This document shows positions 1,916 through 25,413 of a stretch of 25,947 nt of DNA, piece by piece. This DNA comes from a virus, in IMG/VR virus record IMGVR_UViG_3300042344_000008, positions 1-25,947 of that record. One strand, written 5' to 3'. Made by a program: the position numbers and the translations under genes. The notes under the pieces were generated by a model. It saw only the letters and a program-made list of their open reading frames with translations, had not been told where the DNA came from and did not search any database. How positions within the stretch are numbered: position 1 is the first letter of the stretch; every line of letters begins with the position of its first letter.

Positions 1916-3760
1916 ATGGGTCTTCGTGACCGTATCGCAAAGGCATTACTGGCTGGAGACTTAGACAAGAAGCCAAACCTGCCGGCTGGTGCTACTACCA
2001 TGTCGGAAAACGATATGCGTAACGCAGCTCTTAATCAGATTGCGCAGAACTACGGCAACTCGAACCCATTACCGCGTAACCCTTGGTTGAACATGGTTCC
2101 GTTCGGTCCGGGTATGCCGATTACTCCGGGAGCAATTAACCCTTTACGCCCTGACGGCAGACCGGATCCGCGCCGCTACGAATACCAAGTAGCGCAAAAC
2201 ATCAACATCACCGAAACACGCCTTGTTCCTTTTAAGACTCTGCGAGCTGCGGCAGATCAGATAGATATTTTGCGGCGTTGTATCGAAGTATTGAAGAGCA
2301 AGATTACTGGGCTGGATTGGGATATTGTTTTAGGAACAGACGCTTCCGAAAAGATCGCAGCAGAGTCCGGCGGGGATCATGTTCGCGCTATGGCGAAGGC
2401 TCGCCAAGAATATACCGATGAGATTAACCGCATTAGAACATTTTGGGAGAACCCGGATAAGGCAAACGGGCTTACCTTTTCGGATTGGTTAATGATTGCT
2501 TTAGAAGAGATCCTAGTTATTGACGCTTGGGCAGTTTGGCCACAAATGAGTGTCGGTGGAGATCTCTACGGCTTACAGATCCTTGACGGATCCACAATTA
2601 AGCCATTACTGGATGATCGCGGTATGCGCCCTATGCCGCCTAACTCAGCTTTCCAACAGATCCTATACGGCTTTCCACGCGCCGAATTTACTGCGAATGA
2701 CGATGATCCGAAGGCAGACGGCGAATTTACGGCTGATGACTTGGCTTATATGGTTCGTAATCGCCGCACAATTAGCGTATATGGGCAATCTCCAACCGAG
2801 CGAGCGCTACCCCTAGCCGATATTTACTTGCGCCGCCAACAATGGATTAGAGCCGAATACACAGACGGCGTATTGCCGGAGCTGATGTTCGAGACAGATG
2901 CTACTTGGGGAACTAATCCGGAGCTGCTACGCGCTTACGAAAATATCTTTAATGACGATCTATCCGGGCAAACCGAACAACGCAAGCGCGCTCGCTTATT
3001 GCCTAGCGGTATGAAGCCGGTTCAATACGAAGGCTATGGCGAGAAGTTCAAAGACACGCTCGATGATTACTTGATTACTTCGATTTGCGGACACTACGGA
3101 GTCCAACCGGCAGAAATCGGCTTTTCTCCTAAAGGCGGACTCGGTGGCGCTGGATTTGAAGAAGGTAGGGCTTCGAGCGCAGAAGCAATCGGTGCGCAAC
3201 CGCTTGTAAATTGGATCAACAGAATGCTAACTAATCTTTCTTACACTTATCTCGGTATGCCACGCGAATTAGAGTTTAGAATGATGACTTCTAAGCGACT
3301 AGATAACGAAGAAAACGCTCGCAAGGCTCAGATCGAAGTTACAAGCGCCGGTAAGACTATCAACGAACGCAGATCCGAAATGGGCTTGCCTTTACTAGAT
3401 ACTCCGCAAGCAGATATGCCGCTATTGGTTGGTGGCGCTGGGATTTATCTATTCTCACCTGACGGCATTATCAATGCTGCTGATGTTGTGAGCGCTCCGG
3501 CTCTTGCTGGACCCGAAGCAACTCCGTCAGCTCCGACTACGGAAGTAGGAGAGAAGCCGCAGGTAGAGCCAAGCGCTGAGCAAGAAGAAACAATAGAAGA
3601 AGAAGTCAAGGCATTTCTAAAATGGGCAAGTAAAGGCAAACGCGCTCGCCAATTTGAGTTCTATGAGATAGATCCGGTAGTAGGAGAAGCGTTAAATCGT
3701 TGCGCGTTCGAAGGAGATCTCGATACCGCTCGATCTATTGCTAAAGCGTATATCTCATGA
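1916..3760 (+). CDS. Portal protein
   Basis: This 614-residue protein forms the dodecameric ring at the capsid vertex through which DNA enters and leaves. Support comes from size, position directly before a Mu gpF-like head protein and the protease, and portal-like stretches such as ADQIDILRRCIEVLKSKITG and LDWDIVLG near residues 117-142, as in actinophage portals. The mid region has SICGHYGVQPAEIGFSPKGG, the usual portal segment, followed by a helical stem region. The C-terminal 100 residues contain an acidic stretch and a small FLKWASKGKRARQFEFYE domain that may face the capsid interior. GGGAGAT lies 6 bases before the ATG. The stop overlaps the next start (ATGA). Confidence 0.9.
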   Translation: MGLRDRIAKALLAGDLDKKPNLPAGATTMSENDMRNAALNQIAQNYGNSNPLPRNPWLNMVPFGPGMPITPGAINPLRPDGRPDPRRYEYQVAQNINITETRLVPFKTLRAAADQIDILRRCIEVLKSKITGLDWDIVLGTDASEKIAAESGGDHVRAMAKARQEYTDEINRIRTFWENPDKANGLTFSDWLMIALEEILVIDAWAVWPQMSVGGDLYGLQILDGSTIKPLLDDRGMRPMPPNSAFQQILYGFPRAEFTANDDDPKADGEFTADDLAYMVRNRRTISVYGQSPTERALPLADIYLRRQQWIRAEYTDGVLPELMFETDATWGTNPELLRAYENIFNDDLSGQTEQRKRARLLPSGMKPVQYEGYGEKFKDTLDDYLITSICGHYGVQPAEIGFSPKGGLGGAGFEEGRASSAEAIGAQPLVNWINRMLTNLSYTYLGMPRELEFRMMTSKRLDNEENARKAQIEVTSAGKTINERRSEMGLPLLDTPQADMPLLVGGAGIYLFSPDGIINAADVVSAPALAGPEATPSAPTTEVGEKPQVEPSAEQEETIEEEVKAFLKWASKGKRARQFEFYEIDPVVGEALNRCAFEGDLDTARSIAKAYIS

Positions 3761-6772: not shown

Positions 6773-8440
6773 ATGGCGGAAATGCCACGCGCAACCGATC
6801 TGTTTGGTGACGCTTCTCCAAGAGAAGCCGCAGAGCGCCACGAAGAATACTTAGGAGAACTTAATAAGTCTCTTGCTAATTCTTCAAGCGTTCCCGGACA
6901 AACACCAACACAAGATCCGCTTGCTGCTATGGAAGCACTAGCTGCTACCAAATCACTTACCCCTGACGCGCTCGCTGGACTACAAAACGCGCTATCAGCA
7001 CAAAGAGTTGCTATGCAAGAGATCCAAAAGGATATTACTCTTACTAGCCCACTCTCAACATCCTTCGCAGCCTTCGATCTCGAAGCACCTGCTAAGTTGC
7101 TCACTCCACGCCCAACACCACTTCGTAACCGCATTCCGCGTAAGAAGGGCGTTGGTACCTCACACCGCGTCAAGAGAATTCTTGGCTACACCGGTACCGG
7201 TACTGGCGGCGTAGGAAATACTTGGCCGGGAATTACTGAGTCAAGCACCGCAACATTCGGATCTATCAACTATGAGCGCGGTCCAAAGATCTCGTACTCA
7301 GCAGATGATCTAGTATTGCCATACAACTCATACTCTCTATCAGATAGCGTGTCATTTGACGCTAACTTCTCAGGTTTGGGTTATCAGGATCTCCGTCAGC
7401 TATCAAGCACATCCACTCTATACGCAACAATGCTTATGGAAGAAAGAATGATGCTTATGGCACGCGGAACCGCAAGCGGTTACTCAGGCGCTCTCACAGC
7501 TCCTACCTTTACCCTTGCTTCTCCTGTTGCTTCCGGATCTCAGACTGCTCTCGCAGCTAATACCTACTATGTGAATGTCACCGCTGACGCTGGTATTTCC
7601 GGCAACGGCTTTGGTGAGTCAATCGTAGGAACAGAAGCAAGCACCGCAGTAGCATCCGGCGATGTTCTAACAATCACAGTATCTACTGCGGTTGCTGGAG
7701 CGCTTGGCTATAACATTTATGTTGGTACCGCAACAGGTAACGCCAATGTGAAGTATCAGGGAACTCTAAAGGGAACAGGAACCTTCACAATTCAAGGCGC
7801 TACTGCTACCGGTCTAACTGGAAATAACGCAGCTTTCACTACATCAGGAGCAGCCGCAACCCGCGCAGCAGCAGATACTTCTGCTTACTCAACCGGTTAT
7901 GACGGAATTCTCCCAACAGTATTGGGCGCAAACTCCGGTTACAACAACTCAATCAACTCCACTTTCAGCACCGCTAATCCGGGCAGCGAGTTCCAAACAG
8001 TATTCGCTTCGCTCTATCAGTCAGTTAAGGCTGATCCGGACCTAGTATTGCTAAACGGAAATGATCGTAAGCAGCTCTCTGACGCAATCAAGAGTGGATC
8101 TACCGCTAACTATCGCTTGGTCATTAATGATCCGGGCGAAGGCGGAACAACATACGGATCTATTGTTACTGGACTTCAGAACGAAGTTACCGGTAAGGCA
8201 GTAGATCTTATGGTTCATCCTTGGCTAAATCAGGGTGTGGCTCCGGTCCTATCCTTTACTCTGCCAATCCCTGATACCGAAGTGTCCGATGTTTGGGCTA
8301 ACTTCTTAGTTCAGGATTACATGGGTATTCAATGGCCTGTAACTCAGTTCAGTTACGACTTCTCAACTTACTTCCGTGGCACTTTCTTCTGTACCGCTCC
8401 TGCTTGGAACGGCGCAGTATCAGGAATTATCAACGCATAA
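6773..8440 (+). CDS. Major capsid protein with beta-rich insertion
   Basis: At 555 residues this is larger than a simple HK97-fold capsid protein. The first 95 residues are helical and could be a delta domain or scaffold-like part removed by the protease. The core has TPLRNRIPRKKGVGTSHRVK, ISYSADDLVLPYNSYSLSDS and ERMMLMARGTASGYSGAL, which resembles actinophage HK97-fold capsids. Residues about 240-350 are a Thr/Ala/Gly-rich beta segment (ANTYYVNVTADAG, LGYNIYVGTATGN) that looks like an inserted Ig- or fibronectin-like domain. After it the core resumes (ADPDLVLLNGNDRKQLSDAI, then YDFSTYFRGTFFC). AAAGGAAAC precedes the ATG. A terminator follows directly. Confidence 0.9.
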   Translation: MAEMPRATDLFGDASPREAAERHEEYLGELNKSLANSSSVPGQTPTQDPLAAMEALAATKSLTPDALAGLQNALSAQRVAMQEIQKDITLTSPLSTSFAAFDLEAPAKLLTPRPTPLRNRIPRKKGVGTSHRVKRILGYTGTGTGGVGNTWPGITESSTATFGSINYERGPKISYSADDLVLPYNSYSLSDSVSFDANFSGLGYQDLRQLSSTSTLYATMLMEERMMLMARGTASGYSGALTAPTFTLASPVASGSQTALAANTYYVNVTADAGISGNGFGESIVGTEASTAVASGDVLTITVSTAVAGALGYNIYVGTATGNANVKYQGTLKGTGTFTIQGATATGLTGNNAAFTTSGAAATRAAADTSAYSTGYDGILPTVLGANSGYNNSINSTFSTANPGSEFQTVFASLYQSVKADPDLVLLNGNDRKQLSDAIKSGSTANYRLVINDPGEGGTTYGSIVTGLQNEVTGKAVDLMVHPWLNQGVAPVLSFTLPIPDTEVSDVWANFLVQDYMGIQWPVTQFSYDFSTYFRGTFFCTAPAWNGAVSGIINA

Positions 8441-21853: not shown

Positions 21854-22072
21854 ATGGATATTCAACAATGGGCGGCGCTCGCAGTCGCAATAATGACTCT
21901 AGTAGGCGGCTTCGCAGCTCTCGTAAGGTGGCTGGTCAAGCATTATCTAATTGAGTTGAAGCCCAACGGCGGCAGCTCGCTTCGTGATGAGCAAAATAGG
22001 CAAGGCGATACAATCAAGCGGCTGGAGTCGCGCATAGATGAAATATATCTATTGCTTATTAATCGTTCTTAG
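21854..22072 (+). CDS. Small membrane protein with coiled-coil tail
   Basis: This 72-residue protein has one predicted membrane helix (about residues 6-27, AALAVAIMTLVGGFAALV) and a charged, helical C-terminal half (DEQNRQGDTIKRLESRIDEI) likely to form a coiled coil. AAGG lies 12 bases upstream, a weak site. It opens the lysis cassette. The plan resembles XhlA-type holin helpers and, in outline, an inner-membrane spanin subunit; the overlap of its 3' end with a lipoprotein gene in another frame recalls Rz/Rz1. Neither role can be decided from sequence. Confidence 0.65.
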   Translation: MDIQQWAALAVAIMTLVGGFAALVRWLVKHYLIELKPNGGSSLRDEQNRQGDTIKRLESRIDEIYLLLINRS

Positions 22073-22217
22073 CCTTTCCGGGTGCGGCTATGACGGGTGG
22101 GTTCGATATCCTTGCCAAGATCCGGCAAACTGGGAAGCGCCGGAGTGTAATCCACCGATCTGCGAAGCGACAGGCACCTGCACAAAAGATCTATTACCGG
22201 GGGTATTTGATGAGTAG
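22038..22217 (+). CDS. Small overlapping lipoprotein (Rz1-like architecture)
   Basis: This 59-residue gene starts at ATG 22038, with GGAG 10 bases upstream, inside the end of the previous gene and in another frame; it ends at TAG 22215-22217, past the start of the next gene. The protein begins MKYIYCLLIVLSLSGC: a basic start, a hydrophobic core and a perfect lipobox LSGC with Cys16. The mature 44 residues are Cys- and Pro-rich (GYDGWVRYPCQDPANWEAPE, CNPPICEATGTC). I recall similar small lipoproteins in environmental phages. It should be anchored to a membrane by lipid. A role in host lysis is inferred from location. Confidence 0.75.
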   Translation: MKYIYCLLIVLSLSGCGYDGWVRYPCQDPANWEAPECNPPICEATGTCTKDLLPGVFDE

Positions 22218-22500
22218 AAAGCGACTCAGCAACGAAGAACTACACGCTCGACTCGTAGTAACAATCGGGGTCATGCTTGCCTTTGTCTTTGGCGGATCTA
22301 TTTTTGCGTTGCTTTACGCTCTTGTTTTCGTCACTCAACCTATGGCGCAAGCGCCTAATGACGCTGCTTTTATTGACTTAATTTCGACTTTATGCGTATT
22401 TTTGACCGGCACTCTGTCTGGAATAGTAAGCGCTAATGGGCTAAAATCTAAACCTAAGCCGCCGATAGAGAAGGAGACGGGCAATGACGCTGGCAACTGA
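22210..22500 (+). CDS. Holin-like membrane protein
   Basis: From ATG 22210, which has GGGGG 6 bases before it, the protein has 96 residues. A basic N-terminus (MSRKRLSNEELHARL) precedes a long hydrophobic segment (residues 17-42, VTIGVMLAFVFGGSIFALLY), and a second at about 55-74 (FIDLISTLCVFLTGTLSGIV), ending in a charged tail (KSKPKPPIEKETGN). The longer reading from 22090 covers the lipoprotein gene in another frame and is not preferred. Size, two membrane helices, charged tail and location directly before the endolysin fit a holin. The stop lies inside the endolysin gene. Confidence 0.65.
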   Translation: MSRKRLSNEELHARLVVTIGVMLAFVFGGSIFALLYALVFVTQPMAQAPNDAAFIDLISTLCVFLTGTLSGIVSANGLKSKPKPPIEKETGNDAGN

Positions 22501-22954
22501 TGTAGCGCTATTAGAAATTGGATATACCGAAGGCGCAAATAATGATACTAAATATGGAAAATGGTATGGATTAAATAATAATCCTTGGTGCGCTATGTTC
22601 GTATCTTGGTGCTTTAATCAGGCTGGACTATCGGAGCATGTAGCAGCAAGCGGCAAAAAAGGTTTTGCGAGCTGCGATGCTGGCATGAAATGGTTTGCGG
22701 CTAAAGGTAAGTTAGTGCCGGTAGGAGATGCTAGACCGGGTGATATTGCTTTCTTCCAATTTGACGATGACGCGCAACCGGATCATGTCGGTATTGTTAT
22801 CAAGAACAACACTAAATTAAAAAGGCTTGTATGCGTAGAAGGTAATACCGCAAGTGGTATTGCTGGATCTCAGTCCAACGGAGACGGCGTATATGAGCGT
22901 AAGCGCAGTTACTCTCTAATCATGGCGGTAGCCCGCCCTATCAAGGAGAAATAA
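22484..22954 (+). CDS. Endolysin, CHAP-type amidase/peptidase
   Basis: This 156-residue protein consists essentially of one CHAP domain that cuts peptidoglycan. Visible residues: NNNPWCAMFVSWCFNQAG with catalytic Cys36, DARPGDIAFFQFD, PDHVGIVI with His101, and VEGNTASG with Glu119/Asn121, the order typical of CHAP cysteine amidohydrolases. No cell wall-binding domain and no signal peptide are present, so release needs a holin. AAGGAG is 7 bases before the ATG; the start overlaps the upstream gene by 17 bases. TAATG leads into the next gene. Confidence 0.9.
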   Translation: MTLATDVALLEIGYTEGANNDTKYGKWYGLNNNPWCAMFVSWCFNQAGLSEHVAASGKKGFASCDAGMKWFAAKGKLVPVGDARPGDIAFFQFDDDAQPDHVGIVIKNNTKLKRLVCVEGNTASGIAGSQSNGDGVYERKRSYSLIMAVARPIKEK

Positions 22955-23199
22955 TGAATAAAAAACAAACCGATCTAATCAAGTCAGCTCTACGCCACTT
23001 TGTCTTGGTGGCTATTGCGGTTTATCAAGTCACCGGTGGAGACGCAAAGGCGTTCGCCTATGGTCTAGCAGCAGCTATTATCGGTCCGGCTATTCGCGGC
23101 GTAGATAAGAGCGATCCGGCTTTCGGCAAAGTAGCGGATTGGGTCACGCTGGAGATAGACAAATTAGCCAAAGCAGACAAAAAGAAAAAGACGAAGTAG
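22954..23199 (+). CDS. Second holin-like small membrane protein
   Basis: This 81-residue protein has a hydrophobic region (about residues 12-50: HFVLVAIAVYQVTGG, AFAYGLAAAIIGPAIRG) that could make one or two membrane helices, followed by DKSDPAFGKVADWV and a Lys-rich tail (KADKKKKTK). Proteins with GPA.RG.DK.DPAFG next to endolysins are often annotated as actinophage holins. AAGGAG is placed 5-6 bases before the ATG. A strong terminator follows, so this closes the late transcript. Which of the membrane proteins is the true holin is unresolved. Confidence 0.68.
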   Translation: MNKKQTDLIKSALRHFVLVAIAVYQVTGGDAKAFAYGLAAAIIGPAIRGVDKSDPAFGKVADWVTLEIDKLAKADKKKKTK

Positions 23200-23709: not shown

Positions 23710-24733
23710 AAAACGACTCAACGATATGCCGGAAGGCATTGACTCCGAGAATGTCGCAGAGCTGCGCCAAGCCTTACTCCGGCTACAAAAGCAATTAAAG
23801 AGATCTAAAGAGCGCACCGAAGATCTAGTAGAAATTACTCAGCAAGCTGCGTATGACGCGATGCTAACTATGGGTAAAGTCCAACCCGTACCGGAAGTCG
23901 TACCGGATAAAAGAAAAACAAAAGCCGAAGCAGCTTTATGGCACATGACGGATTGGCAGGGAGCCAAGCGCACCGTATCTTACAACTCAGAGATAATGCG
24001 CAAAAGAGTTATGGAGTTTGCGGCGAAAGCAGTTCGCATTACCGATATTCAGCGAGCAGATCACCCGGTAAAAACTTGCCATATTTTATTTGGCGGAGAT
24101 ATGGTAGAAGGCTTATTCAATTTCCCTACGCAAGCGTTCGAAGTCGATGCGACATTGTTTGAGCAGTATGTCCAAGTCTCTCGGTTATGCGTAGATGTAG
24201 TCCGGTTTGCGCTCGCCAACTATGAGCAAGTCACAGTAATCCCGGAGTGGGGTAATCATGGGCGTATAGGATCTAAGCGCGACAATGTGCCGAGATCCGA
24301 CAATTTTGACCGGATGTGCTATGAGTTAGCGCGGCAGCTCTTGGCTGGAGAGAAGCGATTAACTTGGCTGGACTGCCCGGAAGATGTCCAACGCGTAGAA
24401 ATAGGAGCCTATCGAGCGCTACTTATTCACGGAGACGAAGTAGGTAGAAATGGATTTGCTTCACCGGGCGCAATAGTCCAACACATGAACCGGTGGAGAT
24501 CCGGTTCGTATCCTTGGGAGTTCCGGGATGTTTATGTTGGGCATTACCATACTCACGCAGAGTGGCCAATGGCTAACGGCTTAGGATCCGTTTATCAAAG
24601 TGGATCCACCGAGTCAGATAATAGATACGCCGGCGTGATGCTAGCTGCGAGCGCTACCCCGTCTCAACGCTTACACTTCGTAGATCCCATTAAAGGCAGG
24701 GTAACGGCGGTGTATAAAGTATGGTTAGACTAG
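23699..24733 (+). CDS. Metallophosphoesterase
   Basis: This 344-residue protein has a helical N-terminal region (residues 18-60, coiled-coil-like) and a calcineurin-like phosphoesterase domain. Motifs seen: HMTDWQGAK (Asp85, Gln87), GGDMVEG (Asp134), EWGNHGR (Asn186, His187), LLIHGDEVG (His244) and GHYHTH (His282, His284). The first motif is D-x-Q rather than the classical D-x-H. Metal-dependent phosphodiesters of this type act on nucleic acids or nucleotides; the substrate is unknown. The end overlaps the next gene by 13 bases. Confidence 0.85.
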   Translation: MSLEKRLNDMPEGIDSENVAELRQALLRLQKQLKRSKERTEDLVEITQQAAYDAMLTMGKVQPVPEVVPDKRKTKAEAALWHMTDWQGAKRTVSYNSEIMRKRVMEFAAKAVRITDIQRADHPVKTCHILFGGDMVEGLFNFPTQAFEVDATLFEQYVQVSRLCVDVVRFALANYEQVTVIPEWGNHGRIGSKRDNVPRSDNFDRMCYELARQLLAGEKRLTWLDCPEDVQRVEIGAYRALLIHGDEVGRNGFASPGAIVQHMNRWRSGSYPWEFRDVYVGHYHTHAEWPMANGLGSVYQSGSTESDNRYAGVMLAASATPSQRLHFVDPIKGRVTAVYKVWLD

Positions 24734-25413
24734 ATAGGCTACTGACTCAAAATAGCGAGCTGCGCCCTGACGGGATCTATAATTGGTCTATTCCGGCGCT
24801 CGCCGCTAAGTTATCTAACGGAAAAAACATAAAGACTTGCCCTAACGCTGGAGCGTGTGCCAATGTTTGCTACGCCCGGAACGGCACTTACAATTTTAGT
24901 AATGTTAAGGCGCGGCATACCGCTAACTTAGAGTATGTAATCGATGATCCGCAGGGTTGGTTGGCGCAGATGCTAGAAGAAGTCAATCACCCGCGTATGC
25001 GCGGTAAATATGTCCGGATCCACGACTCAGGAGATTTCTTTTCGGAAGACTACTTGCGGCTATGGTTGAAAATAGCGCTTTTGACTCCGGATGTGACTTT
25101 CTATTGCTATACCAAGGAAGTCTCTATGTTCAAGCGCATAGTCGAATACGACTGCCCGAAGAACTTTCGCTATCTCTATTCGCTAGGCGGCAGAGAAGAT
25201 AACCTGATAGATCTCGAACTAGACCGCCATGCCGATGTGTTCCCTGATGACGCGGCAATACTGGAAGCCGGCTACTCTAATCAAGATGCTTCGGATCTGT
25301 TGGCAATCACCTTACCTTCCAACAAGATTGGCATACCGCAGAACAACATTCCGCAATTTAGAAAGCGGCTTGCTGGTCGGACTTTCGGAGAAGCGCAGCT
25401 GGACCGAAATTAA
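24721..25413 (+). CDS. GP88-like phage protein, Cys-rich motif
   Basis: This 230-residue protein resembles the phage gene product 88 family. It begins LLTQNSELRPDGIYNWSIPA and has CPNAGACANVCYARNGTYNF (Cys40, Cys46, Cys50), then YVRIHDSGDFFSEDYLRLWL, FYCYTKEVSMFKRI and NFRYLYSLGGRED. The three Cys in a C-x5-C-x3-C spacing could bind a metal or an iron-sulfur cluster, and the HDSGDF segment looks like a catalytic or binding site. No function is established that I know. The start overlaps the metallophosphoesterase. Its stop overlaps that of a gene on the other strand. Confidence 0.7.
   Translation: MVRLDRLLTQNSELRPDGIYNWSIPALAAKLSNGKNIKTCPNAGACANVCYARNGTYNFSNVKARHTANLEYVIDDPQGWLAQMLEEVNHPRMRGKYVRIHDSGDFFSEDYLRLWLKIALLTPDVTFYCYTKEVSMFKRIVEYDCPKNFRYLYSLGGREDNLIDLELDRHADVFPDDAAILEAGYSNQDASDLLAITLPSNKIGIPQNNIPQFRKRLAGRTFGEAQLDRN

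Follow-up and report, generated by a model that had tools for sequence, protein, structure and literature searches.

A conserved pair of a small cysteine-rich lipoprotein and a two-helix membrane protein in phage lysis operons

The small gene at positions 22038-22217 (plus strand, 59 aa) of the analysed stretch of viral DNA (IMG/VR record IMGVR_UViG_3300042344_000008; 25,947 nucleotides, hereafter the window) encodes a lipoprotein of a widespread and hitherto undescribed family, which is frequent among phages from environmental samples but nearly missing from characterised phages. Its constant partner is a protein with two transmembrane (TM) helices, encoded directly downstream (22207-22500, plus strand, 97 aa). 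Sequence comparison supports the gene itself, its pairing, its position in lysis operons, the anchors and conserved surfaces of the proteins and the separateness of the pair from spanins. It is possible, at chances close to even, that both proteins form one unit of the lysis operon, which is located at the outer face of the cytoplasmic membrane and acts like an antiholin or lysis regulator. Somewhat more tentatively, the pair may represent an undescribed two-gene module, in which a disulfide-type domain with four cysteines (Cys4), tethered by a lipid or a helix, gates the two-helix protein in hosts of both envelope types and independently of an outer membrane.

Judged by its sequence and its relatives, the gene at 22038-22217 is real, far beyond chance. 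An in-frame TAG (22035-22037) directly abuts the ATG at 22038, so that the start is unambiguous, and a GGAG resembling a ribosome-binding site (22024-22027, plus strand) lies 10 nt before it, as the first-pass annotation had pointed out. This annotation had also described a lipoprotein signal with LSGC at Cys16 and a mature part with four more cysteines and several prolines, and these features are all present in the translation MKYIYCLLIVLSLSGCGYDGWVRYPCQDPANWEAPECNPPICEATGTCTKDLLPGVFDE. The signal comprises residues 1-15, the lipobox LSGC is encoded at 22074-22085 (plus strand; codon of the lipid-attachment residue Cys16 at 22083-22085), and the invariant, putatively extracytoplasmic core RYxC...C..PxC.....C covers residues 23-48 (22104-22181, plus strand). 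A search among environmental phage proteins and a comparison of synonymous sites, both proposed at that stage, agree with a translated gene: one scan of IMG/VR yielded 541 stretches encoding relatives, and in the lipoprotein frame synonymous change was high and protein change low (dS 0.25 and dN 0.015 to the nearest distinct relative, L006). Towards remoter relatives, synonymous sites were mostly saturated, at a dN of about 0.05-0.2 in the core.

The reported overlap with two membrane protein genes was confirmed and amounts to 35 nt with the upstream gene (22038-22072) and 11 nt with the downstream gene, but the use of three frames over 22072-22217 had been overstated, as the downstream gene starts at 22207. 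Its relatives begin at the position matching this ATG (MSRKRLSNEELHARL...), and several of them (L007, L010, L043, L048 and L061) possess no extension 5' of it; the second overlap is therefore restricted to 11 nt. The open frame at 22090-22206 is not conserved among relatives. Moreover, synonymous change in the lipoprotein frame is free in this region, which argues against a second constrained frame. Coding in three frames across 22090-22206 was consequently ruled out.

Loci were compared in group A (L002-L081), group B (L085-L164 and L165-L238, the latter set found via the partner protein) and group D (L239-L318). These groups hold related and sometimes overlapping contigs, and the counts refer to loci rather than to independent events. 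The aligned relatives have seven invariant positions, including four cysteines, in the consensus R-Y-x-C ... C-x-x-P-x-C ... C. The lipobox is conserved in all 34 distinct relatives of group A and in all 45 of group D, and it is found in none of the 64 distinct relatives of group B, in which LSGC is replaced by LSGD or similar residues and the N-terminal part looks like a TM anchor that stays uncleaved. A lack of lipobox conservation, which had been named as an argument against the lipoprotein, is thus limited to one clade, where the anchor helix would tether the protein, and the family keeps its extracytoplasmic domain while the anchor changes.

The lipoprotein had no match in Pfam, and Foldseek against the PDB returned nothing. 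When PDB sequences were searched with a profile, all matches were at the level of chance and most of them were to antibody light chains. Matches to PHROGs were marginal; the best-supported one (Cor, phrog_1119) spans residues 1-28, i.e. the signal peptide alone. Peptide-pattern scans of GTDB genomes detected no relative in prophages or hosts. Similarity was found in 4-5 of 50,697 phage reference records (the similarity to Pantoea phage Phynn being weak, E 0.7), and these are all environmental assemblies except for one doubtful match. Since almost no phage of the reference collections carries the lipoprotein, this component was left unannotated. In the literature, no inner-membrane lipoprotein was found described in a lysis cassette.

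The gene of the two-TM protein lies directly 3' of the lipoprotein gene in 308 of 309 informative loci, i.e. those in which the contig leaves room, and the result is the same from either search direction. At the single listed exception (L060), the contig ends within the length of the two-TM gene; a further locus (L311) gave no profile match because its match sits at a contig end. The AlphaFold2 model of the two-TM protein is a helical hairpin (mean pLDDT 71). Its best-conserved segment is the putative extracytoplasmic loop VFVTQPMAQAPNDA (22324-22365, plus strand; 3.45 bits versus 2.79 and 2.96 in the helices), and six of the eight invariant residues (L36, F41, V42, Q44, P45 and D52) are located at the outer end of the first helix and in this loop. 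The protein belongs to phrog_25359, which is annotated as function unknown. A match to the holin family PF07332 was below the cut-off, and holin matches in general were only sub-threshold. In group D, the two-TM protein possesses a long proline-rich C-terminal tail with endings such as PPPPTTPPDYIDP, which is absent in groups A and B.

The assignment of the lipoprotein gene to a lysis cassette was well founded, as the pair lies within lysis operons beside an endolysin or Rz gene, with the two-TM protein as a small helical membrane protein before the endolysin or spanin. In the window (all genes on the plus strand), the pair is preceded by the gene of a coiled-coil protein with one TM helix (21854-22072, 72 aa) and followed by an endolysin with CHAP/NlpC-P60 domain matches (22484-22954). 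Directly 3' of the latter, a membrane protein of 81 aa is encoded (22954-23199), which is a holin candidate; it had no family match, and its relatives occur only in group A (31 loci). Around the pair, the upstream neighbours come from eight or more unrelated families and the downstream ones from approximately six, which replace one another, and the adjoining endolysins are of the CHAP/NlpC, M15 peptidase or GH19 kind. This persistence of the pair, while the outer neighbours change families, suggests a functional unit. In group A the median spacing from the two-TM gene to the next gene, usually the endolysin gene, is -4 nt, and in all 69 loci of group D the two-TM gene runs up to or into the start of the Rz gene. 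In most group-B loci, the pair is separated from the endolysin gene by another gene, nuclease-like or of a different kind; at L083 (3443-3850) and at many group-B loci, this is a thermonuclease-like gene with a signal peptide before a GH19 endolysin.

The record DSL-LC01 carries a separate holin-like gene adjoining the pair (phrog_443, 1.5e-5). Because of this gene and of the membrane protein after the endolysin in the window, the holin may be a protein other than the two-TM protein. DSL-LC01 itself was rejected as a cultured actinophage, since it was assembled from a metagenome and its host is a prediction (PMC10611076). At L082 (OQ999401), the gene 5' of the pair (7651-7953) matched a PHROG labelled "nuclease" (4.6e-18) as well as a holin PHROG (1.5e-5). 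Its product reads as a membrane protein, and the nuclease label is therefore probably a transferred error.

In group D, a further small lipoprotein gene, nested in or overlapping a longer frame, is located 3' of the two-TM gene in all 64 loci with enough sequence. At L084, the longer protein matches Rz-like spanins of PHROGs (1.4e-12) and the nested protein gave a match at 4e-5. A strict lipobox script found 13 of 56 of these group-D o-spanins, and a profile found all of them. Group D carries spanins and therefore most probably serves diderm hosts.

The hosts of group A were deduced from WhiB, which is restricted to Actinobacteria and their phages and is used as a phage marker (PMC6802176). 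This marker was preferred because capsid and portal similarities of the window yielded only distant matches with mixed hosts. Of 22 group-A records, 15 carried WhiB, among them that of L005 with a lipoprotein identical to the one of the window; all 12 group-B and all 14 group-D records lacked it. The window record contains no WhiB, but it is a fragment. Group A is accordingly assigned to actinophages; the window belongs to a freshwater virus infecting actinobacteria. As group A is actinobacterial and group D diderm, the pair appears to work in both envelope types. Among the other genes of the window, a portal protein (1916-3760, PF04860) has distant relatives only, in phages of mixed hosts. 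A GP88 family protein (24721-25413; PF17338, 1e-50), the family of which is known from mycobacteriophages, also occurs in the records of L005, L018, L033 and L081 and, more weakly, in the group-D record of L253.

Two signs point to retention of the lipoprotein at the inner membrane. All 70 group-D loci encode an acidic residue at position +2 or +3 after the lipoprotein cysteine (ED in 54, otherwise SD, KD, QD, DD or FE), whereas the cysteine of the nested Rz1 in these operons is followed by AS or GS. Acidic residues there have been linked to retention in the inner membrane, although species differ (PMC6469965). The TM-anchored clade points to the same membrane.

These observations are consistent with a mechanism, in which the Cys4 domain would be tethered at the outer face of the cytoplasmic membrane by its lipid, or by a TM helix in one clade, and would dock on the short conserved loop (FVTQP...D) of the two-helix hairpin. 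The docked domain might then determine the moment at which the hairpin opens the membrane or permits lysis, or whether it does so at all, and the lipoprotein would act like an extracytoplasmic antiholin or lysis regulator. The membrane location, the physical contact of both proteins and the effect on the timing of lysis are the steps which we infer. Against this mechanism count the missing functional assignment of phrog_25359, the sub-threshold level of its holin matches, the separate holin-like gene of DSL-LC01, the further small membrane protein of the window and the gene between pair and endolysin in group B. Another role in lysis, which the first-pass annotation had offered as its second option, is supported for the lipoprotein in the lysis cassette of an actinobacterial phage. 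Phage lysis is usually described as the work of a holin and an endolysin, plus a spanin for diderm hosts. Here a further component would be added, which is shared by phages of both envelope types and paired with one membrane protein. Its co-occurrence with true spanins makes the role of the lipoprotein directly testable.

Superinfection exclusion is an unlikely alternative, according to which the pair would stop the DNA or tail proteins of an incoming phage at the cytoplasmic membrane, its place in the late operon being incidental. Such exclusion is known from small lipoproteins of phages (Cor, T5 Llp) as well as from small membrane proteins (T4 Imm/Sp), and an extracytoplasmic tether at the inner membrane would fit this function. 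However, exclusion genes are usually expressed early, whereas the pair keeps its place in the lysis operon, where stop and start codons of neighbouring genes overlap. Cor is likewise a small phage lipoprotein with a similar signal peptide, but the match to phrog_1119 stops at this peptide and the mature domain shows no similarity; a Cor-like exclusion protein was therefore ruled out. Rather improbable is a helper of wall degradation, whose Cys4 domain would bind peptidoglycan, its precursor lipid II or the endolysin and thereby aid the access or cutting of the enzyme. It would provide the target common to monoderm and diderm hosts which is needed here, and the pair does adjoin endolysins of several kinds; however, the endolysin family changes while the pair remains constant, and the fixed partner is the two-TM protein and no enzyme.

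A spanin-like disruptor, i.e. an o-spanin or its monoderm analogue that fuses or breaks envelope layers together with the upstream coiled-coil protein, is very improbable, because separate canonical nested Rz/Rz1 genes occur in the same operons of group D, acidic residues follow the lipoprotein cysteine there, one clade is TM-anchored, the upstream partner is not conserved and predicted in the wrong topology, and group A comprises actinophages. The first-pass annotation had compared the lipoprotein with Rz/Rz1 spanins, and this reading did not withstand the analysis: by its sequence features, the lipoprotein is not an outer-membrane spanin. It shares with lambda Rz/Rz1 that a small lipoprotein, rich in Cys and Pro, is encoded in the lysis operon by overlapping genes and, in the window, after a TM protein with a coiled coil. 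In contrast to Rz1, it has an invariant Cys4 core instead of a proline-rich unstructured tail. Of the features of an o-spanin, the lipobox is found in groups A and D, but outer-membrane sorting residues and the status of sole o-spanin in the operon are lacking in group D, and the upstream protein does not have the N-in/C-out topology predicted for an i-spanin partner. Lambda Rz is N-in/C-out (PMC6139136), whereas the upstream protein carries positive charges after its helix in 27 of 27 distinct relatives and is predicted N-out/C-in by the charge rule; elsewhere, unrelated genes replace it. The Pfam family Phage_lysis (Rz) was detected in none of the 26 records of groups A and B, which is weak evidence because spanins vary widely and the records may be incomplete. 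A lipoprotein gene adjoining that of a coiled-coil membrane protein is thus insufficient for calling a spanin.

The proposed regulatory pair can rather be compared with T4 RI, an extracytoplasmic antiholin that acts on a holin (PMC8385771). The shared principle would be an extracytoplasmic domain that binds a holin and keeps it in check; however, RI is released and soluble, and holin T possesses one TM helix and a periplasmic domain instead of two TM helices (PMC8385771). No sequence match to RI was found. In the lysis cassette of mycobacteriophage F1, LysF1b resembles the upstream protein of the window (single TM helix, N-out/C-in, charged cytoplasmic helix), and LysF1a, with two TM helices and N-in/C-in, resembles the two-TM protein; these likenesses concern topology only, and the available part of the report notes no lipoprotein component (PMC13056207). 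Deletion of LysF1b impairs lysis (PMC13056207). LysZ of Corynebacterium phages, as presented there, differs in its size (177 aa), its single TM helix with N-in/C-out topology and in not being a lipoprotein, but it, too, adds to the lysis cassette of an actinophage a further membrane protein that acts outside the membrane (PMC13056207).
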